From Adlercreutzia hattorii (GTDB lineage: Bacteria; Actinomycetota; Coriobacteriia; Coriobacteriales; Eggerthellaceae): a stretch of 64,000 nt of DNA. The stretch covers positions 1,039,001 through 1,103,000 of the forward strand of contig NZ_AP022829.1 in NCBI RefSeq assembly GCF_011405655.1, written 5' to 3'. Made by a program: the position numbers and the translations under genes. A model generated the notes under the pieces. The model worked only from the letters and a program-made list of their open reading frames with translations. It ran no database searches and was not told where the DNA came from. Positions 2,967 to 37,142 of the stretch are shown here, piece after piece (the first letter of the stretch is position 1; each line of letters starts with the position of its first letter).

Positions 2967-3461
2967 CTAGGCGCAGGCCATCTGAACGAGGGTTTCCAGA
3001 GAGACGCCCTCGACCTCGGCGTTGGCGATGGCGCCGCCGCCGGCAACGTTGGTAGCGCAGGAGCAGGCCATCACGTAGGAGGTCGCTTCCTCCTCGCCGG
3101 CCAGCTCGTCCACGGTGGTCGTGAACGAGGCGTTGGGGCCCGCCACGGTGACGGCCGCGGCCTTGACGGCCTCGCAGCCGTACGTGGGCAGCGACGCGCA
3201 TAGCGTGGCGGCCGCCTTGCAGAAGACGCCGCTTATCTCGGCGTTGGAGGACACGGCGTCCTGCGTGTAGCTAAAGGTTCCCTCCACGGCGCGCGCCGGG
3301 GCCTCGGTGTCTGCGGCGTCTGCGGCAGCCAGGGTGGTCGCAGCGGCTGGAGCGGCTGCCGCGGGTTCGATGGTAGCGGCCTGGGCCACGCCGGCGCCTC
3401 CGGAGATGAGGGCCACCGCGCTCATCACGCCGCCGATGGTCCTAACAGTTTGAGATTTCAT
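2967..3461 (-). CDS. Secreted cysteine-rich protein resembling the N-terminal half of a SUOX-fold Mo domain (copy 1)
   Basis: 164 residues. A Sec signal peptide (about residues 1-28, cleavage after AQA) is followed by an Ala/Pro-rich linker and a domain with about seven cysteines. The C-terminal segment ACSCATNVAGGGAIANAEVE and then GVSLETLVQ matches, position for position, the Mo-ligand cysteine loop of the neighbouring cytochrome-Mo enzyme (ALACATNGRGG..VSN....GVSVAYLIE). The cysteine near residue 135 is the counterpart of the Mo-binding cysteine. The protein stops where a complete sulfite-oxidase fold would continue, so it looks like a detached half domain. It lies 19 bp downstream of the triheme-Mo gene on the same strand and is probably cotranscribed. 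A close paralogue is at 7855-8352. No function is known; a Mo-cofactor chaperone, subunit or decoy are all possible. Confidence 0.75.
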   Translation of the reverse strand: MKSQTVRTIGGVMSAVALISGGAGVAQAATIEPAAAAPAAATTLAAADAADTEAPARAVEGTFSYTQDAVSSNAEISGVFCKAAATLCASLPTYGCEAVKAAAVTVAGPNASFTTTVDELAGEEEATSYVMACSCATNVAGGGAIANAEVEGVSLETLVQMACA

Positions 3462-3480
3462 GGAATGTCACCGTTCCTTT

Positions 3481-5067
3481 CTATTCCTCGACGTTCACGA
3501 ACAGCGTGACGGGCTTCTTCATCTGGACGCCGTTCACGTCTGTGGCCTGCAGCTTCACCTGGTACTTGCCCGCCTTGCTCGGCGTCCAATCCAGGGAATA
3601 GGTGACCCACTGGAACGGATCGAAGTCGGTGACCTGATCGGCGATCTTCACGTCTTGCCAGGTCTTGCCCATGTCGAAGCTGAAGTTGACGCTGGCCAGG
3701 TCTCCCACGACGCGGTTCCAACTGTACACGGCACCGGTCAGGGTCACCGGCTCGCCCACCTTGGCGGTGACACCGTCTTCCTGGAACCACATGCCGTTGA
3801 TGGGATAGCTTGGGGAGGGCTCGTCGGATTCGGCCATCATCGGGCCCTGGAAGAACGCCTCGTCCTGGGTGAAGTCGATCGACTTGATGTGCTTCACCTG
3901 ACGGGCGCCGGGGTTGCCCAGGGATACGAGGGTCATGGGGGCGCCGTCATCCTGGCTTAAGTCCTCGCCGTAGTACTTCAGGGCGATATAGGCGTTCTCG
4001 GTGTAGGTGCTCGCCTCCAGGTTCATGGGCGGGAAGGCCTGCCAGCCGTCGTAGCCCGTGGCGTTCACGGCGTTCACGCCGTCGGCCAAACCTCCGCACT
4101 GCTCGATGAGGTAGGCCACCGACACACCGGACATGGGGATGTTGGACACGAGCGAGCCGCCGCGGCCGTTGGTGGCGCAGGCGAGCGCCATGGTGAACTC
4201 GGTCTGGGGCATGGCAAGAAGTTCGGCCTTCGTGAACGAGCGGGGGTTCTTCACGCCGGTGAGGCTTACGGTGTTCTCCTCGCTGCACACGGCATCGAAG
4301 CTGAAGGGCTCGCCGTTCTTCTCGGTGACCTCGGGGCCCCAGTTGTTCACGATGAACACGTCGTCGTGATCGGTGACGGCCTGGTCGAGCTTGACATCGA
4401 TGGCGGGCGCCTCGTCCTGGGTCATGCCGTTCACAAATCCGCCGAAGAAGCCGCGGGAGTCGACCCAAGCCTGCTCCATCTCGTTGCCGTCGATGTTCGG
4501 GTAGCCGCCCAGCGCCGGCTCATCGTAGAAGTCGTCCCACAGCACCAGCTGATAGTCGCCCTGGCCGCCGGCGGAGTTCATGGCATGGCAGCTCCAGCAG
4601 TTGCCGTTGGCCTCTTGGAAGACCTTGCTGCCATAGTGGGCCGCATGGATGAGGTCGCCCAGATACGGGCCGGTGAGCGCCGTATGGCCGCGATGGCACG
4701 GCTCGCAGTCCTGGTAGGTGAGGGCCTTGTCGTAGCCCACGTGGGTCAGGATGTGCTTGTAGCCGTCCTTCATGTTCATGACATCCCACAGATCCTCGTG
4801 GCACGCATTGCAGCCGCGGTTGCCCGCGTTCAGCATGTCGGTGGTGCTGAAGGTGTCGTTGAAGTTCCCAGAGGTCCTATCAGTGAAGTCCGGGTACATT
4901 GACGGCGCGGCCTCCTCCGTCGCCTCCGCATCTCCGCCCGTCGCGGCCATGCTCGTGGTGGCTTGGGGCGCGCACCCCCACAGCGCGAGCGCCAGGGCTG
5001 CTACGGCCGCCATCACGGCTACGGCCACGAGCAAGCGGGACGTGCCCTTGCTTTCTTGTGCTTTCAT
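3481..5067 (-). CDS. Triheme cytochrome c fused to SUOX-family molybdopterin domain, lipoprotein (copy 1)
   Basis: 528 residues. A hydrophobic N-terminus ends in the lipobox LWGC (Cys32), predicting a lipoprotein on the outer face of the membrane. Three c-type heme motifs follow: CNACH (86-90), CEPCH (121-125) and CWSCH (157-161). From about residue 230 there is an oxidoreductase molybdopterin-binding domain of the sulfite oxidase/YedY family. Its Mo-ligand cysteine is expected at Cys297 in LACATNGRGG. The C-terminus has an Ig-like dimerisation domain (VNFSFDMGKTWQDV, DWTPSKAGKYQVKLQ). The layout suggests an extracytoplasmic reductase or oxidase that passes electrons through its own hemes; the substrate is unknown. 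ATG 5067 has a strong GGAGAAGAGG leader. The gene is divergent from a LuxR regulator and paralogous to 8372-9967. Confidence 0.88.
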   Translation of the reverse strand: MKAQESKGTSRLLVAVAVMAAVAALALALWGCAPQATTSMAATGGDAEATEEAAPSMYPDFTDRTSGNFNDTFSTTDMLNAGNRGCNACHEDLWDVMNMKDGYKHILTHVGYDKALTYQDCEPCHRGHTALTGPYLGDLIHAAHYGSKVFQEANGNCWSCHAMNSAGGQGDYQLVLWDDFYDEPALGGYPNIDGNEMEQAWVDSRGFFGGFVNGMTQDEAPAIDVKLDQAVTDHDDVFIVNNWGPEVTEKNGEPFSFDAVCSEENTVSLTGVKNPRSFTKAELLAMPQTEFTMALACATNGRGGSLVSNIPMSGVSVAYLIEQCGGLADGVNAVNATGYDGWQAFPPMNLEASTYTENAYIALKYYGEDLSQDDGAPMTLVSLGNPGARQVKHIKSIDFTQDEAFFQGPMMAESDEPSPSYPINGMWFQEDGVTAKVGEPVTLTGAVYSWNRVVGDLASVNFSFDMGKTWQDVKIADQVTDFDPFQWVTYSLDWTPSKAGKYQVKLQATDVNGVQMKKPVTLFVNVEE

Positions 5068-5186
5068 CCTCTTCTCCTTCCTTTCCGTTGAAGATGTTTG
5101 CCTTTCGCCGATCGGGGCGCATCAAGGGAGGCGTGGTGCGCCCCAGCCGGCAAGCGTCACTTTAAATGCGGGCGGCCGATTGAAAA

Positions 5187-5235
5187 TCAGCAACGTTTGT
5201 TGAGGTTGGTCAGCCATCTCAACAACTCTTGTTGA
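5187..5235. promoter_or_regulatory. Paired 7-3-7 palindromes between cytochrome gene and LuxR regulator
   Basis: TCAGCAA-CGT-TTGTTGA (5187-5203) and TCAACAA-CTC-TTGTTGA (5219-5235; exact 7-bp arms). Their centres are 32 bp apart, three helical turns, in the divergent region 5068-5393. They are good candidates for the binding sites of the adjacent LuxR-type regulator. The second module has a palindrome of the same geometry at 10114-10130. The rest of this intergenic region shows no gene. Confidence 0.6.
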
Positions 5236-5393
5236 TTTCAGGGAAATGCCAGATGATATGATTGAGTCGGCTGAATAGCGCTCGGCGAGGCGCCTCGAGG
5301 GTCGCAAGAGGTTGCGTCGGCGATGGCGGCCCGCGGGCGCTTCGTGTTGCGCTGGAAAGAGAGAACCGGTTGCGAGGGGTGGGGTTGAGGAAC

Positions 5394-6989
5394 GTGGATG
5401 AGGCAGGGAAGACGACGGCCCGCGCGCTGAGGACATTCGAGGGGGCGCCGAAGGGCTATTGGTGGATCGTCGGGGCGCTCGTGGCGCTGGCGTCGGCCGC
5501 CATGCTTCTGCACGAATCGGGAAGCTGGATGCTCGATCTCGCGCCGCTGTGGGGCGCGTCGGTCAACATCCGCGCCTTCTCCTGCGACGCCCATTCGCTC
5601 GGACTCGTCTTCGGCTATGCGGTAACGCAGATCAATGGACGGAAGTTCGCCCGCCTGGTCGGCGACGGCCTGTTCTGGCTCATCTTCTTCATCGCGCAAG
5701 TGGGCAACGTCCTTCTGTTCTATGGCTGTCTTACGGTGCTGGACGCGCCCTTCGCCATCGTTGCCGTGCAGTTTGTTGGCGCCGCCTCGGGGGCATGGTT
5801 TTTCGTGGCCGCCAGCCAGGTGGCGTGCATGGTCGGCCCCGCGCTGTTCATGGGCACCATCGTGGCCGTGGTGGCGCTGACCACCCTCATCGTCCAGGGT
5901 CTGTTCAGCATGCTGGAGGCCACCTCGCCTCTGCTGGTCTCAGAGCTTCTGCATCTGGGGCTGGTGGTGGCAGCGGGGCTGTGCCTCGTGAAGGCCATGG
6001 CGCCGGGCTCCTGCTTTCCCGAGAGCTACCGTCGCTCGTTTGCGCCCATTCGCACCCGCGAGGACGGAGGAGGGGAGACGACGGAAGAAAAAAGGGGAAG
6101 TGCTTCCAGCGACCGACGGCCGGATGACCTCGCGCCCTCGCGCCGACGGGCGCCCCTGTGCGTCCGACTCTTCGTCATCGTCGGCTCCTACGGTATAGTG
6201 TTCGGCTTTCTCCACGTCATTCCGCTGGCGCTGCCCTTGGGCGTCGTGGCGCGGGTGGCCTCGTTTCTGGTGGGGGCTGTCGTCGCGCTTGCGCTCTTCA
6301 TCGTTACGCTCCGTCGCGGGCGCCCCGTGGACGTGTCGCTCATTTGGAACCGCTTCTACCGCTTCGTGTTCCCCGTGGTCTGCGTGGCGGCGCTCTTGGG
6401 TCCTCTCACCAACAGCAGCGAGTTTCTGCCGGCTCTTATCATGCAGGCCTGCGCCCTCTACTACTTCGATGCGCTGCTCGCCATGGCCTGCTCGGTCATC
6501 GGCCAGGCCATTAACGCCGCTCCGTCCCAGGTGTTCGGACGGGCCTTCCTCATTCGATCGATCGGCTTTCTGCTCGGCAATCTCGTCGGCAGCACGGTGT
6601 ACGAGCGCGTAGTGCTGGATGCCGCGGCCTTCTCCGTCATCGGCACGGCGGTGTTCGTCCTGCTTGTGCTCGTCACCTTCAACATGAACTCGGAGAAGTA
6701 CGCCAAGACGGTTTGGGGCCTTCTGCCCCACGAGGATCCGCGCGGCCGCTACGAGCGCACCCGCGATGAGCGCTGCGCGGCTCTGGCGGATCAGTTCGGC
6801 CTGACCGAGCGCGAGGCCGAGGTGCTGCGCCTGCTCGCCCGCAACAAGCGTCCCCGCGAGATCAGCGACGTGCTGGTGGTGTCGGTGGCCACGGTGCGCT
6901 CGCACGTTCATGCCATTTACACGAAGACGGGCGTGCACTCGGCCGCCGAGCTGGTGAAGCTTGTAGAATGTCCCCAGGACAAAAACTAG
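5394..6989 (+). CDS. Multi-TM membrane protein with C-terminal LuxR HTH (regulator 1)
   Basis: About 531 residues from GTG 5394. In-frame GTG 5379 and TTG 5385 are alternatives; TTG 5385 has the better spacing to GAGGGG at 5374, while 5394 matches the paralogue's N-terminus. Many hydrophobic segments (roughly ten to twelve) form an MFS-like membrane part split by a charged loop, and the last 65 residues are a LuxR-type HTH (LTEREAEVLRLLARNKRPRE, VATVRSHVHAIYTKTGVHS). Such membrane LuxR proteins are common next to reductase genes in Eggerthellaceae and are thought to sense the reductase substrate. It is divergent from the triheme-Mo gene, its likely target. Confidence 0.85.
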   Translation: MDEAGKTTARALRTFEGAPKGYWWIVGALVALASAAMLLHESGSWMLDLAPLWGASVNIRAFSCDAHSLGLVFGYAVTQINGRKFARLVGDGLFWLIFFIAQVGNVLLFYGCLTVLDAPFAIVAVQFVGAASGAWFFVAASQVACMVGPALFMGTIVAVVALTTLIVQGLFSMLEATSPLLVSELLHLGLVVAAGLCLVKAMAPGSCFPESYRRSFAPIRTREDGGGETTEEKRGSASSDRRPDDLAPSRRRAPLCVRLFVIVGSYGIVFGFLHVIPLALPLGVVARVASFLVGAVVALALFIVTLRRGRPVDVSLIWNRFYRFVFPVVCVAALLGPLTNSSEFLPALIMQACALYYFDALLAMACSVIGQAINAAPSQVFGRAFLIRSIGFLLGNLVGSTVYERVVLDAAAFSVIGTAVFVLLVLVTFNMNSEKYAKTVWGLLPHEDPRGRYERTRDERCAALADQFGLTEREAEVLRLLARNKRPREISDVLVVSVATVRSHVHAIYTKTGVHSAAELVKLVECPQDKN

Positions 6990-7003
6990 AGAAGGGGATT
7001 GCC

Positions 7004-7678
7004 GTGGAAAAGGAGCGTGCGGAAGGCCTGGCGGCTCGTGCGGAGGAGGCCGTGGAAGGCGCGACGGCTCGGGTTGCTGCCGAGGGAGGCGACGGTGCCG
7101 CGGTCGTTAGCGACCCGGAGAAGTGCAACACCGTCACGTTCGTGGGGGCCGACGGGATGGAGCAGAGCTTCCCTCTGGACTTTTTGCTGGAGCGCGGCGC
7201 CATCGTGGCCAACCGCGTGAACGGCGAGGACATCATGAGCGTCATGGGCGCTACCAATCAGCTGTGGGTGCCGGGGCTGCCGGCCAAGTACTTCGTGCGC
7301 GACATCCGCGAGATCCGTTTCACCAATGAGGAGGTGCCCCCGGTCATCGGGCCGTTCGTCGACGACGGCCACGACTACACCAACCGCCCCAACGTGGCGG
7401 CGAAGGCGGAGTACGTGGGGCGCGTTGGCGAACCCATGGAGTTTTCCGGCTGGGCCCACGACTTCGACAAGCGCATCATCGCCGTGGAGTTCTCGCTCGA
7501 TAACGGCGAGCATTGGACGCGCTACGATTTGGGCGACACCACGGCCGACCGCTGGGTGTCCTGGACCTTCGCCTGGACGCCCGAGGCCTCTGGCGCCTAC
7601 CAGATGAAGGTGCGCTCGGTGAACGAGGACGGCGACGCGTCCCCTATCGCCGCCGTGCACACCTTCGAGGTGTTGTAA
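7004..7678 (+). CDS. Stand-alone C-terminal half of a SUOX-type Mo oxidoreductase
   Basis: 224 residues from GTG 7004, behind GAAGGGG at 6991-6997; an upstream ATG at 6968 would overlap the LuxR gene. After a charged, signal-less N-terminus the protein enters the molybdopterin domain only at its second half (VTFVGADGMEQSFPLDFLLE, then VNGEDI and LWVPGLPAKYFVRDI). It finishes with the Ig-like dimerisation domain (VEFSLDNGEHWTRY, FAWTPEASGAYQMKVRS). The half with the Mo-ligand cysteine is absent. It is probably cotranscribed with the LuxR gene and is convergent with the small secreted protein that resembles the missing half. It could be a truncated remnant, but the reading frame is intact and codon use is normal. 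Cytoplasmic location is inferred from the lack of a signal. Confidence 0.7.
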   Translation: MEKERAEGLAARAEEAVEGATARVAAEGGDGAAVVSDPEKCNTVTFVGADGMEQSFPLDFLLERGAIVANRVNGEDIMSVMGATNQLWVPGLPAKYFVRDIREIRFTNEEVPPVIGPFVDDGHDYTNRPNVAAKAEYVGRVGEPMEFSGWAHDFDKRIIAVEFSLDNGEHWTRYDLGDTTADRWVSWTFAWTPEASGAYQMKVRSVNEDGDASPIAAVHTFEVL

Positions 7679-7784
7679 GACGCGAGCTGCGTTGATCTAT
7701 GCTAACGAGGGGTATCTCTCGATGACGCGACTCGATCTTTCTGCAGGGCCGCAATAGGGCCGTAATATCCGCGCAGCGCGCAAA

Positions 7785-7817
7785 CGGGCCCCGGAAGGGG
7801 GAGGCTTCCGGGACCCG
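7785..7817. terminator. Hairpin between convergent genes
   Basis: CGGGCCCCGGAAG (7785-7797) pairs with CTTCCGGGACCCG (7805-7817) with one mismatch. It lies between the convergent half-domain gene (stop 7678) and the small secreted protein gene (stop at 7855). T runs on both sides are weak, so it is a candidate bidirectional terminator only. Confidence 0.5.
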
Positions 7818-7854
7818 TAGGGGAGGGGTAAGGAAAGGTTTGGTGTGAGGCGCT

Positions 7855-8352
7855 CTAGGCGCAGGCCATCTGCACAAGGGTCTCCAGCGAGACGCCCTCG
7901 ACCTCGGCGTTGGCGATGGCGCCGCCGCCGGCGACGTTGGTGGCGCAGGAGCAGGCCATCACGTAGGAGGCCGCCCCCTCCTCGCCGGCCAGCTCGTCCG
8001 CGGTGGCCGTGAACGAGGCGCCGGGGCCCGCCACGGTGATGGCCGCGGCCTTGGCGGTCTCGCAGCCGTAGGTGGGCAGCGACGCGCACAGCGTGGCCGC
8101 CGCCTTGCAGAACACCCCGCTGATCTCGGCGTTGGCGGTCACGGCGTCCTGATCGTAGCTGAAGGAGCCCTCCACGGTGCGTGCGCCGGGGGCCTCGGGG
8201 GCCGCGGAGTCCGAGGCAGCCGTGACGACCGGCATGGCCGGCGCGGGCGCGGCCGAATCTACCGTGGCGGCCTGGGCCACGCCGGCGCCCCCGGAGATGA
8301 GGGCCACGGCGCTCATCACGCCGCCGAGTGTCTTAATCGTTTGGGATTTCAT
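7855..8352 (-). CDS. Secreted cysteine-rich protein resembling the N-terminal half of a SUOX-fold Mo domain (copy 2)
   Basis: 165 residues from ATG 8352 (MKSQTIKTLGGVMSAVALIS). It is closely similar to the protein at 2967-3461. Signal peptide and mature C-terminal domain are nearly identical (ISGVFCKAAATLCASLPTYG and the ACSCATN loop), whereas the Ala/Pro linker after the signal peptide differs. A longer frame extends upstream to 8625 inside the cytochrome gene but has no ribosome binding site; AAAGGGA precedes ATG 8352. It follows the second triheme-Mo gene by 19 bp, repeating the gene order of copy 1. Conservation in two modules argues that it has a function tied to that enzyme. Confidence 0.75.
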   Translation of the reverse strand: MKSQTIKTLGGVMSAVALISGGAGVAQAATVDSAAPAPAMPVVTAASDSAAPEAPGARTVEGSFSYDQDAVTANAEISGVFCKAAATLCASLPTYGCETAKAAAITVAGPGASFTATADELAGEEGAASYVMACSCATNVAGGGAIANAEVEGVSLETLVQMACA

Positions 8353-8371: not shown

Positions 8372-9967
8372 TTACTCGGAAACATGGACGAACAGAGGCA
8401 CGGAGAAGGGCATCTCGTTGCCAAGGTCGTCCGTGGCTGCCATCTTGACCAAGTAGGTACCGGCCTTTGCGGGCGTCCAGTCCATGGAGAAGTTGACCCA
8501 TTGGTAGGGATCGAAATCGGGCACTTCCTTGTCCACGTCGTACTCGACCCAGGAGGTTCCCATGTCGAAGCTGAACTTGATCGTATCCAGGTTGCCCCAC
8601 ATGCGGTTCCAGCTGTACATGGCACCCGTGAGATTCACCGGCTCGCCAACTTTGGCCTCGACGCCGTGCTCCTGGAACCACATGCCGTTGATGGCGTAGT
8701 TGGGGGTGGGCTCGTCCGATGCGCCCATGAGTGCGGCCGTGAACGGCTCGTCATCGTGCATGAAGTCGATTTGCTCGACGTGCTTGACCTGCCATGCGCC
8801 GATATTGCCAAGGGAGATGAGTACCATGGGGGCGCCGTCGTCTTTGGAGAGCTCCTCGCCGTAGTACTTGAGGGCGATGTAAGCATCTTTGGAATAGGTG
8901 CTGGCCTCTACGGGCATTGCGAAGGACTTCCAGCCGTCGGAGGCGGTGGCCACAACGGCGTTGCTGTCGTCGAGAAGGCCGCCGCACTGTTCGATGAGGT
9001 ATTCCATGGAAACACCCGACATGGGGATGTTCGACACGAGCGAGCCGCCGCGTCCGTTGGTGCCGCAGGCCAAGGCCATGGAGAACTCGGTCTGGGGCAT
9101 GGCGAGCAGCTCTTCTTTCGTCCACGTCTTCGGATTCTTCACGCCGGTGATCGTCAAGGTATTGTCCTCGCTGCACACTTCGTTGAAGTCGAAGGGCTCG
9201 CCGTTCTTCTCGGTCACTTCCTCGCCCCAGTTGTTCACGATGAAGACATCCTCATGATCGGTGACGTCTTGGGCGAAGCTGACGGATATGGTGGGGTTCT
9301 GCTCGGTGTCCATGCGATTGTTGAATCCTATGGCATCGCTGGAATCCTTGCCACGAACGCTCAGCCAGTAGCGGGTGGTCTCGTCGTTGGCGATGTTGGG
9401 GTAGCCGCCCAGCGCCGGGCTGTCGTAGAAGTCGTCCCAGAGCATGAACTGGTAGTCGCCTTGGGAGCCGGCGGAATCCATGGCGTGGCAGCTCCAGCAG
9501 TTGCCGTTGGCCTCGACAAACTGCTCGCTGCCGTAATGGGCGGCATGCAGCAAGTCGCCGAGGTAGGGCCCGGTGAGCGTCGTGTGACCGCGATGGCATG
9601 GCTCGCAGTCCTGGTAGGTGAGCGCCTTGTCGTAGCCCACGTGGGTCAGGATGTGGTTGTAGCCCTCCTTCGTGTTCATGATGTCCCGCAGATCCTCGTG
9701 GCACGAGTTGCATCCGCGGTTGCCGGCGTTCAGAAGCTCGGTAGTCTGATAGGTGTCGTTGAAGAGCCCCGAGCTCTTCTCGGTAAAGTCGGGGTACAAT
9801 CCGACTACTGCCTCCTCGCTCGCCGCTGCTTCTTCGGCGCCTCCTGTGCTGCTGAGCTCGGCATGGGGCGCGCAGCCCCAAAGGGCCAGGGCGAGGCCGA
9901 TGACGGCCGCCATGACGCCGAGGGCTGCGAGCAGGTGCCTGCGTCGCTGGTTTGCTGTCGTGTCCAT
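8372..9967 (-). CDS. Triheme cytochrome c fused to SUOX-family molybdopterin domain, lipoprotein (copy 2)
   Basis: 531 residues from ATG 9967 (MDTTANQRRRHLLAALGVMA) behind AAGGAGAAGAGG; the frame is open further upstream, without support. A twin-arginine-like RRR stretch and lipobox LWGC are followed by heme motifs CNSCH, CEPCH and CWSCH, then the molybdopterin domain with LACGTNGRGG and the Ig-like dimerisation domain. Compared with copy 1 the Mo-cysteine loop reads CGTN instead of CATN, and the segment between hemes and Mo domain is the most divergent, which would fit different substrates. It is divergent from LuxR regulator 2. Role as in copy 1: a surface electron-transfer enzyme of unknown substrate. 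Confidence 0.88.
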   Translation of the reverse strand: MDTTANQRRRHLLAALGVMAAVIGLALALWGCAPHAELSSTGGAEEAAASEEAVVGLYPDFTEKSSGLFNDTYQTTELLNAGNRGCNSCHEDLRDIMNTKEGYNHILTHVGYDKALTYQDCEPCHRGHTTLTGPYLGDLLHAAHYGSEQFVEANGNCWSCHAMDSAGSQGDYQFMLWDDFYDSPALGGYPNIANDETTRYWLSVRGKDSSDAIGFNNRMDTEQNPTISVSFAQDVTDHEDVFIVNNWGEEVTEKNGEPFDFNEVCSEDNTLTITGVKNPKTWTKEELLAMPQTEFSMALACGTNGRGGSLVSNIPMSGVSMEYLIEQCGGLLDDSNAVVATASDGWKSFAMPVEASTYSKDAYIALKYYGEELSKDDGAPMVLISLGNIGAWQVKHVEQIDFMHDDEPFTAALMGASDEPTPNYAINGMWFQEHGVEAKVGEPVNLTGAMYSWNRMWGNLDTIKFSFDMGTSWVEYDVDKEVPDFDPYQWVNFSMDWTPAKAGTYLVKMAATDDLGNEMPFSVPLFVHVSE

Positions 9968-10130: not shown

Positions 10131-10247
10131 TATCGAGAAAAGCCTGATGAGAGCCTATGCCTGAGCCGTATTTTCGCTGGGGTTGTGTGGTAGTCTCCTC
10201 TTGTGCGATAGGGCTCGAATGCGCTGGTGACGAGGAGGGCGAGGGTT

Positions 10248-11780
10248 GTGGAAGCTTTGTTGGGAAAGGCGGAAGAGCGCAAGAGCGGGAAATCGTCAGC
10301 GTCGCGCCCCAAGGGCTATTGGGCCGCCTTCGGCGCTTGTGTCCTGCTCGTCTCGTCGGCCCAGCTGCTGCACGAGTCGGCGAGCTGGTCTCTGGACTAC
10401 GGCACGGTGCTCGGGACGTTCATCAATCTGCGCGCCCAGTCATGCAACGCCCACGCCGTCGGACTCATCTTGGGCTACGCTTTGGCTCAGATGCGCCCCG
10501 ACCGACTGAGGGCTATCGCTCTGAACGACCGCTTCTGGGTGTTTTTCTTCGCGCTGCAGACGGCCAATGTCATGGCGTTCTATTGGTCGGTGGGGACCTC
10601 CAATGTGATGACTATGATAATTGTGCAGGTGGCGGGGGCTGCTTCGGGTGCCTTCTTCTTCGCGCTGAGCTGTCAGGCGACTGCCGGAGTGGGCGCGCGA
10701 GTGTTCCTCGCGACCGTCGTAGCGCTTGTGGCTCTTACTACGCTCACGGTCCAAGGACTGTTCAGCATCTTGGAGGCCGGTGCCCCGGCTTTGGTTTCCG
10801 AAATACTCCATATGGCGCTTGTTGCCGGATCTGCCGCCTGTTTTGTTCGGGCTATGGGGGCGGGTGCCTGCTTGCGAGTGCAATTCGAACGCGAGCCCTA
10901 TGCTCCGATGGGAGCGCCGCGACGCAGGGGGGAATCGCAGGGTCGTCATCGTGGAGCGCCCTCTTTCGCCCTGTTCCTCATCATAGGCGCCTACGGGGCA
11001 GTGTTCGGATTCCTCCACGTGGTACCTCTAGCTCTGTCCCTAGATGTCTCGAGCCGTGTCACGGCGTTCCTCTTCGGTGCGGTAGCGGCCCTCGGGCTGT
11101 TCTCGGCGACGCTTCGGCAAAGTGACGGCACTGATGTGGTGCGTCTCTGGAACCGTTTCTATCAATACGTTTTCCCCATCGTCACGGTGGCGGCTCTCCT
11201 CGGTCCTCTTACCATGGACACGGAGTTTCTTCCGCTTCTCATTTTGCAGGCGTGCGCCCTGTACTATTTCGATGTTCTGCTCGCCGTTGCGAGCTATACC
11301 ATTGCTCGTGTCATCAAAGCCTCTCCGACGCAAGTGTTCGCCCGCGCGTTTCTCGTCAAGTCAGCGGGATTCTTTCTGGGGTGCTTAGTGGGATTCGGTG
11401 TGCATGAGAGCGTCGTTCTCGACGAGACCGCTTTCAGCGTCATCGGTGCTGCCATCTTCGTGATACTGTCCCTGGTCACTTTCCACACCAATTCGGAGAA
11501 GTTTGCCAAAACGGTTTGGGGCCTTCTTCCTCACGAGGACGCCCATGGAAAGTTGGCGAGCCGGCGGGCGGAGTGCTGCCGCCGTCTGGCCCGATCTTCT
11601 GGCTTGACCGACCGTGAGGCGGAGATACTCGAGTACCTAGTCGCAGGAAAGAGGCCGAAGGAAATCAGTGAAATGTTGGTGGTGTCCATCACCACGGTGC
11701 GGTCTCATGTGCGAGCTATTTACGCGAAGACCGGGGTTCACTCCCATGGCGAGTTGATGCACCTTCTGGACGAAAAGTAG
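10248..11780 (+). CDS. Multi-TM membrane protein with C-terminal LuxR HTH (regulator 2)
   Basis: 510 residues from GTG 10248, nine bases after AGGAGG at 10233-10238; the in-frame GTG 10227 lies before that site. It is paralogous to the protein at 5394-6989 along its whole length, sharing KGYW near the start, WNRFY.Y.FP in the middle and AKTVWGLLPHED before the HTH. The HTH reads LTDREAEILEYLVAGKRPKE, then TTVRSHVRAIYAKTGVHS. It is divergent from the second triheme-Mo gene. Likely a membrane sensor-regulator for that module. Confidence 0.85.
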   Translation: MEALLGKAEERKSGKSSASRPKGYWAAFGACVLLVSSAQLLHESASWSLDYGTVLGTFINLRAQSCNAHAVGLILGYALAQMRPDRLRAIALNDRFWVFFFALQTANVMAFYWSVGTSNVMTMIIVQVAGAASGAFFFALSCQATAGVGARVFLATVVALVALTTLTVQGLFSILEAGAPALVSEILHMALVAGSAACFVRAMGAGACLRVQFEREPYAPMGAPRRRGESQGRHRGAPSFALFLIIGAYGAVFGFLHVVPLALSLDVSSRVTAFLFGAVAALGLFSATLRQSDGTDVVRLWNRFYQYVFPIVTVAALLGPLTMDTEFLPLLILQACALYYFDVLLAVASYTIARVIKASPTQVFARAFLVKSAGFFLGCLVGFGVHESVVLDETAFSVIGAAIFVILSLVTFHTNSEKFAKTVWGLLPHEDAHGKLASRRAECCRRLARSSGLTDREAEILEYLVAGKRPKEISEMLVVSITTVRSHVRAIYAKTGVHSHGELMHLLDEK

Positions 11781-22699: not shown

Positions 22700-24532
22700 A
22701 TGGGGAACTACGAAGAGGAGAAGGTGCGGGGCGGCATGGACCGTCGCTCGTTCTTCAAGCTCGGCGGGCTGACCGCCGGCATGGCCGCGTTCGCCGGCAT
22801 GGCCGGCTGCGCGCCCCAGCAGGAGATGGCCGACACCGGTGGCGACAACGAGACGGTCGCGGCCCGGGTGCCGTACTCCGTGTTCGAGACCGACATCCTG
22901 ATCATCGGCGCCGGCTTCGGTGCGAGCTACGCGGTGGATGCGGCGCGCAAGGCCGGCAAGAACGTGATCATGGTTGACAAGGGCCCCTACGGCTACAGCG
23001 GAGCCTTCGGCATGAGCTTCGACATCATGCACACCTGGGATCCGAACTCGCCGACCTATAAGAGCGAGGACGACATCCCGAACAGCGGCTTCTTGCGCGA
23101 TGAATCCCTGTACCGCGCCGCCTTCATGGAAAGCGAGCTGGGGGACACCCCCGATGTCTGCATCGCCAATTTCGGCGAGGTCTGGTCGGCCCGCAACGAG
23201 GACGGGACGCCGTTCTACCTGTACGACTTTCCGAACATCCGCGGCATCGAGCACTCCATGGCGCGCCAGTGGTCGGATCACTTCCGCGCCCTTGACTACG
23301 TGATGATTCATGACCGCACTATCATCACCGACCTCATCATCGAGGACGGCCGCTGCCTGGGCGCCATGGGCGTGCATGTTCCCACCGGCGAGTACCGCGT
23401 GTTCCGCGCCAAGGCCACGCTGGCGGCCACGGGCGGCTCCACCCAGTTCTATGGCTGGAACTCCACGTCCTGCACGTCGAACAACGTGTGCGACAACACC
23501 GGCGACGTGGAGATGTCGCTTCTGCGCCACGGCGGCAAGGTGGCCAACGCCGAGTTCTGCACCTACGACATGATGGGCGCCTTCCCCCGCAGCTTCGTTG
23601 CCTCCGAGGGCTCCATGGTGGGCGCCGACAGCGTGCATTCTGGCGACCTCATGGACAAGGACGGCAACTACCTGAAGGACGACCCGGAGCTGGCCGAGCT
23701 GCTCGGTTCCCAGGAGGGCGTTATCCAGGCGGCCTGCATTGTCGTCGATCGCGGTCAGGGTTCCGAGAACGGCGGCATCTACCTCGATTGCAAGCCCGAG
23801 TCCCTGTCCACCATGCGCTGGATGTACCAGCGCAACGCGGCGCTGCTGAAGGAGAAGTTCGGCTTCGACTTCACCGAGCAGCCCGTGGAGGTCGTGCCCG
23901 AGATGTACGAGCACAGCGGCGAGATGCTGGTCGACGAGAACGCCATGTGCATCGATGTCGAAGGCCTGTTCGGCGTCCGTTCCAACACCGGCGCCGAGGG
24001 CGGCAACAACAACACCGCCAACCGCCGTATGGGCCGCTACGCCATGAAGAAGGCGCTGGAGTACATCGACTCCTACGAGGAGCCCGCGGCCGTGACCTAT
24101 GAGTCCGTGGCCGCCGAGATCGAGCGTTTGGAGGATCTGCGCACCCGTCAGACCGACGACCCCATCCGCCCCATCACCGTGCGCCGCAGCATCCAGTACG
24201 CCTGCGCCCAGGCCGCTCGCCCCTCCCGTCCCACGGAGGTGCTCGAGGAGGCCAAGGCCGAGCTCGATCGCATCATGACCGAGGACGTGCCCCGCATGGC
24301 CTGCGCCGACGACAGCCTGGTGTACAACGCCGACTGGAAGGACGCCATCGAGACCCTCAACTTGCTCGATCTGGCCCGCCTGTTCGTGTACGCCTCCCTG
24401 GAGCGCCAGGAGAGCCGTGCCTCCCTCATCCGCCCGGAGTACCCGGAGACCGACGATGAGAACTGGGCGTGCGCTCTGGCCTACACCCGCGCCGAGGACG
24501 GCACCCTGTCCTACGAGAAGATCGCCTACTAG
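22700..24532 (+). CDS. Tat-exported FAD-binding reductase subunit, FrdA/SdhA-like (module A)
   Basis: 610 residues from ATG 22700, behind AAAGGAGAGAGGG; ATG 22736 is an alternative that would start at the signal itself. Twin-arginine signal MDRRSFFKLGGLTAGMAAF with a following AGC lipobox-like site; FAD site TDILIIGAGFGASYAVDAAR; substrate region GDVEMSLLRHGG and NAEFCTYDMMG. The fumarate reductase HPT signature is absent, so the substrate is unlikely to be fumarate. The C-terminal helical domain of SdhA/FrdA-type subunits is present, and no FMN or heme domain is fused. It is cotranscribed with the Fe-S subunit 22 bp downstream. Confidence 0.85.
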   Translation: MGNYEEEKVRGGMDRRSFFKLGGLTAGMAAFAGMAGCAPQQEMADTGGDNETVAARVPYSVFETDILIIGAGFGASYAVDAARKAGKNVIMVDKGPYGYSGAFGMSFDIMHTWDPNSPTYKSEDDIPNSGFLRDESLYRAAFMESELGDTPDVCIANFGEVWSARNEDGTPFYLYDFPNIRGIEHSMARQWSDHFRALDYVMIHDRTIITDLIIEDGRCLGAMGVHVPTGEYRVFRAKATLAATGGSTQFYGWNSTSCTSNNVCDNTGDVEMSLLRHGGKVANAEFCTYDMMGAFPRSFVASEGSMVGADSVHSGDLMDKDGNYLKDDPELAELLGSQEGVIQAACIVVDRGQGSENGGIYLDCKPESLSTMRWMYQRNAALLKEKFGFDFTEQPVEVVPEMYEHSGEMLVDENAMCIDVEGLFGVRSNTGAEGGNNNTANRRMGRYAMKKALEYIDSYEEPAAVTYESVAAEIERLEDLRTRQTDDPIRPITVRRSIQYACAQAARPSRPTEVLEEAKAELDRIMTEDVPRMACADDSLVYNADWKDAIETLNLLDLARLFVYASLERQESRASLIRPEYPETDDENWACALAYTRAEDGTLSYEKIAY

Positions 24533-26628: not shown

Positions 26629-28464
26629 ATGGGGAACTACGAAGAGGAGAAGGTGAGCGGCGGCATGGATCGTCGCTCGTTCTTCAAGCTCGGCGGGCTC
26701 ACCGCCGGCGTGGTCGCGTTCGCCGGCATGGCCGGCTGCGCGCCCCAGCAGGAGATGGCCAACACCGGCGGCGACAATGAGACGGTCGCGGCCCGGGTGC
26801 CCTACGCGGTCTACGACACCGACATCCTTATGATCGGCGGTGGCTACGGAGCCAGCTTCGCCATGAACGAGGCGTGCAAGGTGGGTCAGAACGTGCTCGT
26901 GGTCGACAAAGCTCCCTACGGCTTCGGCGGTGCCTTCGGCATGAATTTCGACATCATGAACACTTGGGTGCCCGGTGCGTACTACGAGACGGAGGAGGAG
27001 GTGCCTGGCACAAAGAAGATCCGCAACGAGGCCCTCTACGCGAAGACCGGCGTCCAGAACGAGGTTGAGGTGAATCCCGATGTGGTGTGCGCTAACTGGG
27101 GTGAGATCCTCTCGGACCGCAAGGAAGACGGCACGCCGAACTACATCTACGACTTCCCGACGACTCGCGGTTTCGAGCACTCCATGACGCGTCACTGGTC
27201 CGACCACTTCCGCGCCAAGGACTACGTGACCGTGCACGATCGCACGATGATCACCGACCTCATCATCGAGGACGGCCGCTGCCTGGGCGCCGTGGGCCTG
27301 CATCTTCCCACGGGCGAGTACCGCGTCTACCGCGCCAAGGTAACGCTGACTGCCGCGGGCGGCTGCACCCAGTTCTACGGTTGGAACTCCACCTCGCCCA
27401 CGACGAACAACGTGTGCGACAACACGGCTGACGTTGAGATGGCACTCCTGCGCCACGGCGGCAAGATCGCCAACGCCGAGTTCGGCAGCTACGACATGAT
27501 GGGCGTCTTCCCCCGCAGCTTCACCGCCTCCGAGGGCTCCATGGTGGGTGCCGACAGCGTGCACTCCGGCGACCTCATGGATGTGGACGGCACCTATCTG
27601 AAGGACTACCCGGAGATCGCCGAAAAGGAGCTTTTGGGTACCCAGGCCGGTGTTATCCAGGCTGTGAGCATCGTCGTGGACGCCGGCAAAGGCACGGAAA
27701 ACGGCGGAGTGTACCTGGACTGCAAGCCCGAGTCGCTTTCCACCATGCGCTGGATGTACCAGCGCAACGCGGCCCTGCTGAAGGAGAAGTTCGGCTTCGA
27801 CTTCACCGAGCAGCCCGTGGAGGTCGTGCCCGAGATGTACGAGCATGGCGGAGAGCCCATCACCGACGAGAACGCCATGTGCGTCGATGCCGAGGGCCTG
27901 TTCTGCGTGCGTGCCAACGCCGGCAGCGAGGGCGGCATGATGAACATCACCAACCGCCGTATGGGCCGCTACGCCATGAAGAAGGCGCTCGAGTACCTGG
28001 CGACCTACGAGGAGTCCGAGGCCGTAACCTACGAGGGCGTTGCCGCTGAGATCGAGCGCTTGGAGGATCTGCGCACCCGCCAGATCGAGGGTTCGCTGCG
28101 TCCCATCACGGTGCGCCGCAACATCCAGCACGCCTGCGCCGAGTCGGGGCGTCCGAGCCGATCTGTCGAGGTGCTTGAGACGGCCAAGGCCGAGCTCGAC
28201 CGCATCATGAACGAGGACATTCCCAAGATGGCCTGCGCCGATGACAGCCTCGTCAGCAATGCCGACTGGAAGGACGCCATCGAGGTTGTCAACCTGCTCG
28301 ACATCGCGCGCCTTTCCGTGGAGGCTTCCCTTGCCCGCGAGGAAAGCCGCGACGCGCTGATTCGCCCCGAATACCCCGAGACCGACGATGCGAACTGGAA
28401 GTGCGCGCTGGCCTACACTCGCGCCGAGGACGGCACCCTGTCCTACGAGAAGATTCCCTACTAG
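26629..28464 (+). CDS. Tat-exported FAD-binding reductase subunit, FrdA/SdhA-like (module B)
   Basis: 611 residues, paralogue of the module A flavoprotein. The leader peptide and Tat signal are nearly identical (MGNYEEEKVSGGMDRRSFFK). The FAD site reads TDILMIGGGYGASFAMNEAC. The region after the FAD site (NTWVPGAYYETEEEVPG) and the active-site-side motif NAEFGSYDMMG differ from module A (NAEFCTYDMMG), pointing to a changed substrate. The downstream Fe-S gene starts 23 bp later. Confidence 0.85.
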   Translation: MGNYEEEKVSGGMDRRSFFKLGGLTAGVVAFAGMAGCAPQQEMANTGGDNETVAARVPYAVYDTDILMIGGGYGASFAMNEACKVGQNVLVVDKAPYGFGGAFGMNFDIMNTWVPGAYYETEEEVPGTKKIRNEALYAKTGVQNEVEVNPDVVCANWGEILSDRKEDGTPNYIYDFPTTRGFEHSMTRHWSDHFRAKDYVTVHDRTMITDLIIEDGRCLGAVGLHLPTGEYRVYRAKVTLTAAGGCTQFYGWNSTSPTTNNVCDNTADVEMALLRHGGKIANAEFGSYDMMGVFPRSFTASEGSMVGADSVHSGDLMDVDGTYLKDYPEIAEKELLGTQAGVIQAVSIVVDAGKGTENGGVYLDCKPESLSTMRWMYQRNAALLKEKFGFDFTEQPVEVVPEMYEHGGEPITDENAMCVDAEGLFCVRANAGSEGGMMNITNRRMGRYAMKKALEYLATYEESEAVTYEGVAAEIERLEDLRTRQIEGSLRPITVRRNIQHACAESGRPSRSVEVLETAKAELDRIMNEDIPKMACADDSLVSNADWKDAIEVVNLLDIARLSVEASLAREESRDALIRPEYPETDDANWKCALAYTRAEDGTLSYEKIPY

Positions 28465-36311: not shown

Positions 36312-37142
36312 GTGGGAATCAAACAGTACAAGCCGACGAGCCCCGGCCGACGTTTCCAGACGGTCTCCGATTTCTCGGAGATCACCACGTCCAAGCCGGA
36401 GAAGTCTCTTCTGGCCCCGAAGCCGAAGAAGGCCGGTCGCAACTGCTATGGCCGCATCACCACCCGTCACCAGGGCGGCGGCAACAAGCAGCGCTACCGC
36501 ATCATCGACTTCAAGCGCAACAAGGACGGCGTGCCCGCCAAGGTTGCCACCATCGAGTACGATCCCAACCGCTCGGCCCGTATCGCTCTGCTGCACTACG
36601 TTGATGGCGAGAAGCGCTACATCATTCACCCGAAGGGCCTGAAGGTGGGCGACATCGTGGTCTCCGGTCCGGAAGCCGACATCAAGCCGGGCAATGCTCT
36701 GCCTTTGGCGAACATCCCCGTCGGTACGCTGATCCACAACGTGGAGCTGCAGCCGGGCAAGGGCGCCGCTATCGCCCGTTCCGCCGGTACCTCCATTCAG
36801 CTCATGGGCAAGGAGGGCAACTACGCCATCCTGCGCATGCCCTCTTCCGAGATGCGCCGCGTGCTCATCACCTGCCGCGCCACCATCGGCGAGGTGGGCA
36901 ACGCCGAGCACTCCAACATCAAGATCGGCAAGGCCGGCCGCAAGCGCTGGATGGGCGTTCGCCCCTCTGTCCGCGGTACGGTTATGAACCCGGTCGACCA
37001 TCCGCACGGCGGCGGCGAGGGCAAGAACAAGTCCGCTGGTCGTCACCCGGTCACCCCCTGGGGCGTGCCGACCAAGGGCCATCGCACCCGCAACAAGAAG
37101 AAGGCCTCGAGCCGTCTCATCATCCGTCGTCGCAAGAAGTAG
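36312..37142 (+). CDS. rplB: 50S ribosomal protein L2
   Basis: 276 residues from GTG 36312, behind GAAAGG. L2 is needed for subunit association and peptidyl transfer; the conserved [20 protein letters not shown] segment is present. It is the first gene of the separated second half of the S10 operon, with its own promoter. Confidence 0.98.

Follow-up and report, generated by a model that had tools for sequence, protein, structure and literature searches.

Two separately encoded halves of a sulfite-oxidase-type fold beside triheme enzymes in Adlercreutzia hattorii and its relatives

Introduction

The cofactor-binding domain of the sulfite oxidase (SUOX) family is regarded as one indivisible unit; can it be kept as two chains? 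The question is raised by a stretch of 64,000 nucleotides (hereafter the window) from the 2.9-Mb, single-contig genome of Adlercreutzia hattorii (assembly GCF_011405655.1, contig NZ_AP022829.1, positions 1,039,001 to 1,103,000). An initial annotation had proposed that two small secreted proteins encoded here end in the cysteine loop that supplies the molybdenum (Mo) ligand in SUOX-type enzymes, and that a third gene encodes the second half of that fold plus the dimerisation domain; we call the two kinds of product N-halves and C-halves. The halves are kept intact across species in several gut bacteria, in two-chain form in seven genera, which suggests a working split protein rather than debris. 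We consider it probable, if only by a little, that they represent a conserved gene fission in an exported SUOX-fold family, here called companions, whose two chains jointly do the work of the fused, one-chain companion. Literature searches of a collection without most subscription journals, aimed at split sulfite oxidase genes or at triheme SUOX proteins in Eggerthella or Adlercreutzia, listed a single paper, which concerns mitochondrial evolution.

Results

Two genes cover successive parts of one fold

The reading frames at issue, numbered from the first letter of the window, are the following; here and below, signal peptides, their absence, twin-arginine (Tat) motifs of companions and transmembrane (TM) helices are by-eye calls.

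2967-3461, minus strand: N-half 1, 164 amino acids (aa), with a Sec-type signal peptide; first half of the SUOX-type fold
3057-3065, minus strand: CxC of N-half 1 (codons for C133-S-C135), with the Mo-ligand position taken by the second Cys
6968-7678, plus strand: C-half, with the latter half of the SUOX-type fold and the dimerisation domain; no signal peptide seen
7855-8352, minus strand: N-half 2, 165 aa, a paralogue of N-half 1 with 82% identity
7945-7953, minus strand: CxC codons of N-half 2, the second Cys at the Mo-ligand position

Both N-half frames lie where the initial annotation had put them, and N-half 1 ends 29 residues past its CxC. The C-half frame, previously begun at 7004, runs from an ATG at 6968 that overlaps the stop codon (6989) of a LuxR-type gene, with 7004 as an in-frame GTG alternative.

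The resemblance to the Mo-ligand loop, originally read by eye, proved to be real in profile-profile comparisons made with hhalign on 35 N-halves, 14 C-halves (of the 15 then known; L122 was omitted) and the enzymes. The N-half profile matches positions 220-322 of the enzyme profile at E=1.2e-8 and the C-half profile, as had been claimed for the second fold half and dimerisation domain, positions 325-527 at E=1.6e-32; N-half against C-half, as a contrast, gives E=0.29. The two spans abut without overlap and jointly tile the SUOX-type and dimerisation domains of the enzymes, so that the Mo fold, a single polypeptide in the sulfite oxidase family, is here carried by separate genes with a cut between positions 322 and 325. 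Taken singly, N-halves give feeble matches or none in Pfam and NCBIfam scans: for PF00174, N-half 1 reaches E=0.022, which is under its cut-off, N-half 2 has no match in the single-sequence Pfam scan, and 16 of the 35 N-halves have one at E<=1, the value for the C-half being 3.1e-6. The window C-half is 51-65% identical to 13 other C-halves, and mean column identity across the 14 aligned C-halves is 54%. As for known enzymes, a profile of the eight triheme enzymes of the window genome matches SoxC (2xts) at E=2.4e-30, and a profile match of the N+C pair to SorA entries has a best E of 6.8e-17.

Structure prediction, which the initial annotation had recommended, gave a fold for the pair and not for the N-half by itself. 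Alone, N-half 1 has no confident model (mean predicted local distance difference test score, pLDDT, 58.7; predicted template modelling score, pTM, 0.32), and a PDB search with it returned nothing at E<=0.001. A read-through pair model (L116 N-half, linker, C-half), built on a 43-sequence alignment that includes 13 fused homologues, reaches a mean pLDDT of 80.8 and a pTM of 0.75: 16 of the 19 ten-residue blocks of the C region (residues 191-375) score 90 or more, those of the N region (51-170) range over 59-96 with 7 of 12 at 87 or more, and confidence is low in the signal (residues 1-45) and linker. Foldseek matches this model to SorA (E=6.2e-17), and VIA-align superposes it on chicken sulfite oxidase with Z 21.2 and a root-mean-square deviation of 3.5 over 268 residues spanning both halves. 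Read through as one chain, the N- and C-halves are predicted to have a SUOX-type Mo fold, and the unrelated fold that would have spoken against the proposal did not appear.

The halves as members of a companion family

Each of the two modules in the window consists of a triheme SUOX-type enzyme followed on the same strand by an N-half, with a LuxR-type gene beside it; the C-half lies between the modules and overlaps the tail of LuxR-type gene 1.

3481-5067, minus strand: Enzyme 1, with a lipoprotein-type signal (by eye), three CXXCH motifs, a SUOX-type domain and a dimerisation domain
5262-6989, plus strand: LuxR-type regulator 1, a membrane protein by eye (GerE, E=2.5e-11)
8372-9967, minus strand: Enzyme 2, of the same architecture as Enzyme 1 (queried as 8375-9958, that is, with the N-terminus minus three residues)
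10227-11780, plus strand: LuxR-type regulator 2, a membrane protein by eye (GerE, E=1.7e-13)

The window genome holds eight triheme enzymes, eight companions and one C-half. Five of its companions are N-halves (160-165 aa), two have the whole Mo fold without a dimerisation domain and one has both (359 aa); no C-half remnant was seen downstream of the five N-halves when three frames were inspected. The same three forms, fused (359-360 aa), cut ahead of the dimerisation domain or cut mid-fold, recur among the mapped relatives, where the companion sits immediately behind the enzyme in 52 of 53 cases and immediately in front in the remaining one. CxC is present in 53/53 complete companions, with its second Cys at the Mo-ligand position (the decayed L138 and the contig-end cases L139 and L140 were dropped from this set), and its first Cys in 0/53 enzymes, which have Cys at the second position only. 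These sequence features set the companions off from the triheme enzymes as a separate family, and the earlier view of a divided enzyme-type Mo domain holds as regards the two separately encoded halves but not as regards their origin, the pieces being those of the companion family and not of the enzyme itself. The N-halves had also been credited with Sec signals, which we too see, and with many extra cysteines; only three of the six in N-half 1, namely C88 and the CxC pair, are family-wide.

A second, separate split, located where the dimerisation domain begins, fits the reading that the pieces function jointly. All 14 mapped companions that lack the domain have a separate dimerisation-domain open reading frame in the fetched locus; the domain was the reason for fetching five of these loci, and the other nine were chosen blind to it. 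That the part lost from the companion chain is kept as another gene (14/14 loci in the second split, 15/18 genomes in the first) argues for joint function.

Three further cases were noted. In one companion of the window genome (L032:5191-6294) a TAG stands just before the dimerisation domain; the frame of this domain is still open, and translation may resume from an ATG two codons further. In L145:334-1395 and L160:5847-6902, dimerisation-like domains are fused to a protein that by eye resembles the tyrosine-phosphatase type and shows no signal peptide.

Distribution, copy number and selection

The survey base was 138 Eggerthellaceae genomes and 396 genomes drawn from the class, and counts are among the matches listed. 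The N-half profile detects the family in at least 38 of the 138 and at least 37 of the 396, three of the latter belonging to two further families within the order; a pattern scan of named genomes found 17 related loci, with titles that are mostly Adlercreutzia, Eggerthella or Eggerthellaceae and one metagenome-assembled genome labelled Bacilli. At least 35 N-halves were mapped, in 18 genomes. Separate C-halves number 18, the top 18 matches by a wide margin, in 15 genomes that all have N-halves as well. Across the 138 genomes, 15 list both halves, three the N-half only, none the C-half only and 120 neither (Fisher p 1.9e-17, ignoring kinship; G004, with only the decayed N-half of L138, is scored under neither). 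In the other 19 genomes with the companion family, those listed extend to at least position 250 in a profile of 263 positions and are therefore not halves; one companion in G105 (L140) ends at a contig edge and is unclassifiable. Both halves occur in seven genera, and presence varies inside four (g1, g21, g36, g41), with g1 supplying two of the three N-only exceptions.

Thirteen of the 15 genomes have as many N-halves as C-halves (1:1 in eleven, 2:2 in one and 3:3 in one), which favours joint function. The counts are unequal in the window genome (5:1) and in G133 (11:1), where there are 11 enzymes and the C-half is unlinked. A shared C-half could tie many enzymes to one gene (8 in the window genome, 11 in this relative), an idea weakened by the rarity of such sharing (2/15 genomes).

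All trees were quick ones, of ~94-458 columns. The C-halves form one clade (Shimodaira-Hasegawa-like approximate likelihood ratio test, 99); in the tree of N-halves and companions the label 'half' changes 2 times, and a single N-half clade is not rejected (approximately unbiased test, p 0.776). On the enzyme tree, which carries long-branch warnings, the label changes 8 times. This difference bears on the idea that the triheme enzyme heterodimerises with the companion as its structural or redox subunit, the split altering only how the dimer is built: one companion per enzyme, always adjacent, and a C-half that keeps the dimerisation domain are what such a subunit would lead one to expect, but the partners do not appear strictly matched, and one unlinked C-half would have to serve all 11 enzymes of G133. 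We regard this as decidedly improbable.

Rough ratios of nonsynonymous to synonymous substitution (dN/dS), from our own Nei-Gojobori script on 13 half-protein pairs, are 0.17-0.35 for seven N-half pairs (0.35 for N-half 2 against N-half 1) and 0.05-0.37 for six C-half pairs. That the halves are truncated, decaying and functionless paralogues is hardly credible. One decayed N-half was met (L138), the L032 companion is cut by a TAG, and three genomes have N-halves only; set against these are 35 intact N-halves with the same terminal region and an invariant CxC, the column identity of the C-halves, dN/dS of 0.05-0.37 throughout and the co-occurrence of the two halves. The argument of the initial annotation that the N-half is not debris is thereby borne out, and its homologues elsewhere are not simply truncated pseudogenes.

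Neighbouring genes and export signals

Of the 18 C-halves, eleven follow an N-half as the next gene found, three adjoin the LuxR gene of a cluster that has an N-half (the window, L123 and L126) and four (L149, L154-L156) have no cluster near them within the stretch fetched. In the 11 neighbouring pairs (8 genomes) the halves are encoded on one strand by distinct genes that are spaced 2-261 nt apart (828 in one case) and fall in all three relative frames, with ribosome-binding-like sites ahead of the C-half ATG in most, and with C-halves that open with M-x-[CAYK]-N exactly at the fold boundary; Adlercreutzia C-halves have additional N-terminal residues. Recoding by frameshift or stop read-through as a way of joining the halves was rejected, since the gaps fall in all three frames and 7/18 C-halves are not directly behind an N-half.

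Regular expressions found a lipobox in 50/53 enzymes, RR in 29/53 (the scanned stretch can extend upstream of the start) and a Tat-like pattern in only 4/53, and Tat export of the enzymes was rejected on this comparison. If these triheme proteins (the two of the window and 51 relatives) carry molybdenum cofactor, its loading is puzzling, given lipoprotein-type signals and few Tat-like ones. According to a review (PMC10609526), periplasmic molybdoenzymes are loaded with their cofactor ahead of Tat export, and an enzyme-specific chaperone has so far not been found for the sulfite oxidase family.

A LuxR-type gene is present in 43 of 49 mapped enzyme-bearing loci, and the window C-half overlaps the end of one. 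This would suit an extracytoplasmic ligand sensor working with the adjacent membrane regulator and joined in signalling by the C-half, much as PruR works with DcpA. PruR, as described in PMC13259868, is a proteobacterial, exported, non-catalytic pterin sensor of SUOX fold beside a membrane regulator, and it superposes on the Mo-fold part of the pair model with Z 14.5 over 125 residues. Like it, the companions are exported, have the SUOX fold with faint molybdoenzyme similarity and lie near a membrane regulator; unlike PruR, one chain of ~170 aa in which Trp replaces the Mo-ligand Cys, they keep that Cys (53/53), add another and adjoin triheme enzymes. They also travel with the enzyme, mostly divergent from the LuxR gene, and the genes mapped beside them encode triheme enzymes and LuxR-type regulators (no search was aimed at DcpA). 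The LuxR-type genes themselves appear akin to the Eggerthella 12-TM regulators DadR, HcdR and CadR, which, according to PMC9734109, act on catechol dehydroxylases, so that in E. lenta such regulators serve enzymes of another kind as well. A sensor role therefore seems to us quite unlikely.

Discussion

Several observations weigh against joint work by the two chains. No signal peptide was seen in any of the 18 C-halves, as the initial annotation had said of the one in the window, and the N-halves have one, so that assembly outside the cell would need an unexplained route. The three N-only genomes (79, 93 and 99% complete) yielded no C-half when searched again at E<=1e-8, and an N-half may thus do without one. 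The blocks around the CxC loop score only 69-71 in the pair model, which, given its fused homologues and linker, shows a shared fold and not two-chain binding. Finally, at the two positions that we take to contact the pterin phosphate (human sulfite oxidase R309 and K322), the Arg is Gln and the Lys is Arg in 36/36 companion C-regions, the triheme enzymes having Arg in 2/53 and Lys in 49/53.

Such points invite the alternative that the halves act apart, the leaderless C-half as a cytoplasmic maturation or export chaperone for the SUOX-type domain of enzyme or companion and the exported N-half in a job of its own. The missing signals are in its favour, as are the leaderless dimerisation-domain pieces of the second split, the two similar domains on phosphatase-like proteins and the single C-half beside 5 and 11 N-halves in two genomes. 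It leaves unexplained, however, why C-halves were found solely alongside N-halves although enzymes with other companions are present in many genomes, why numbers match in 13/15 genomes, why a fused form exports both halves and why the N-half alone has no confident fold; we hold it possible though doubtful. C parts either exit by an as yet uncharted route or act inside the cell. A version in which the protein is divided between compartments, with enzyme-specific exported N-halves and a leaderless C-half as dedicated cytoplasmic maturation factor for exported SUOX-fold proteins, recognising its clients (up to 11 in some genomes) by fold complementation, strikes us as unlikely. An analogy to NarJ/DmsD-type maturation proteins might extend to the idea of a leaderless helper specific to an exported molybdoenzyme; no relation to a NarJ-type protein showed up among the 50 matches listed for the pair model, whose fold is the beta-rich SUOX one, and the C-half is itself a fragment from the fold family of the enzyme.

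Under the gene fission that we favour, the halves would derive from a family of exported companions, one encoded with each triheme-cytochrome/SUOX enzyme. Fused one-chain relatives do exist, and the cut falls at a single site midway through the Mo fold. The N-half retains the signal peptide, three cysteines that are invariant and a location behind the enzyme, and the C-half what remains of the fold together with the dimerisation domain, with no visible signal peptide. The two chains would assemble into one composite SUOX-type domain, one C-half presumably serving several N-halves where these multiplied. With less assurance, we suppose that the companion is an accessory rather than a second enzyme, and that the CxC at the Mo-ligand position might bind a ligand (pterin, metal or thiol) while the triheme enzyme is being matured or protected. 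The split domain opens a route to testing how multihaem SUOX-type proteins with lipoprotein-type signals mature.

Among known members of the sulfite oxidase family (PF00174 plus Mo-co dimerisation domain), SorA, SorT and SoxC share with the N+C pair the fold (Z ~20), the Cys at the Mo-ligand position and the dimerisation domain. They differ from it in that here the fold is cut into two genes, an extra Cys makes CxC, the C part is leaderless and the presumed pterin-phosphate residues are changed; no twin-arginine motif was noticed in companion signals.

Other features of the window

The S10 ribosomal operon is split by ~34 kb (2412-36312) between rplW, which ends at 2412, and rplB (36312-37142), and the insert includes respiratory, transport and regulator genes. 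Among relatives with both genes on one contig, rplW and rplB are likewise separated in G001 (~21 kb), G008 (~14 kb), G007 (~10 kb) and G002 (~203 kb); an N-half lies directly behind rplW in G008 and ~2 kb from it in G001. The same island also encodes near-duplicate exported proteins of 610-611 aa at 22700-24532 and 26629-28464, which start MGNYEEEKV and have a twin-arginine-like signal by eye.

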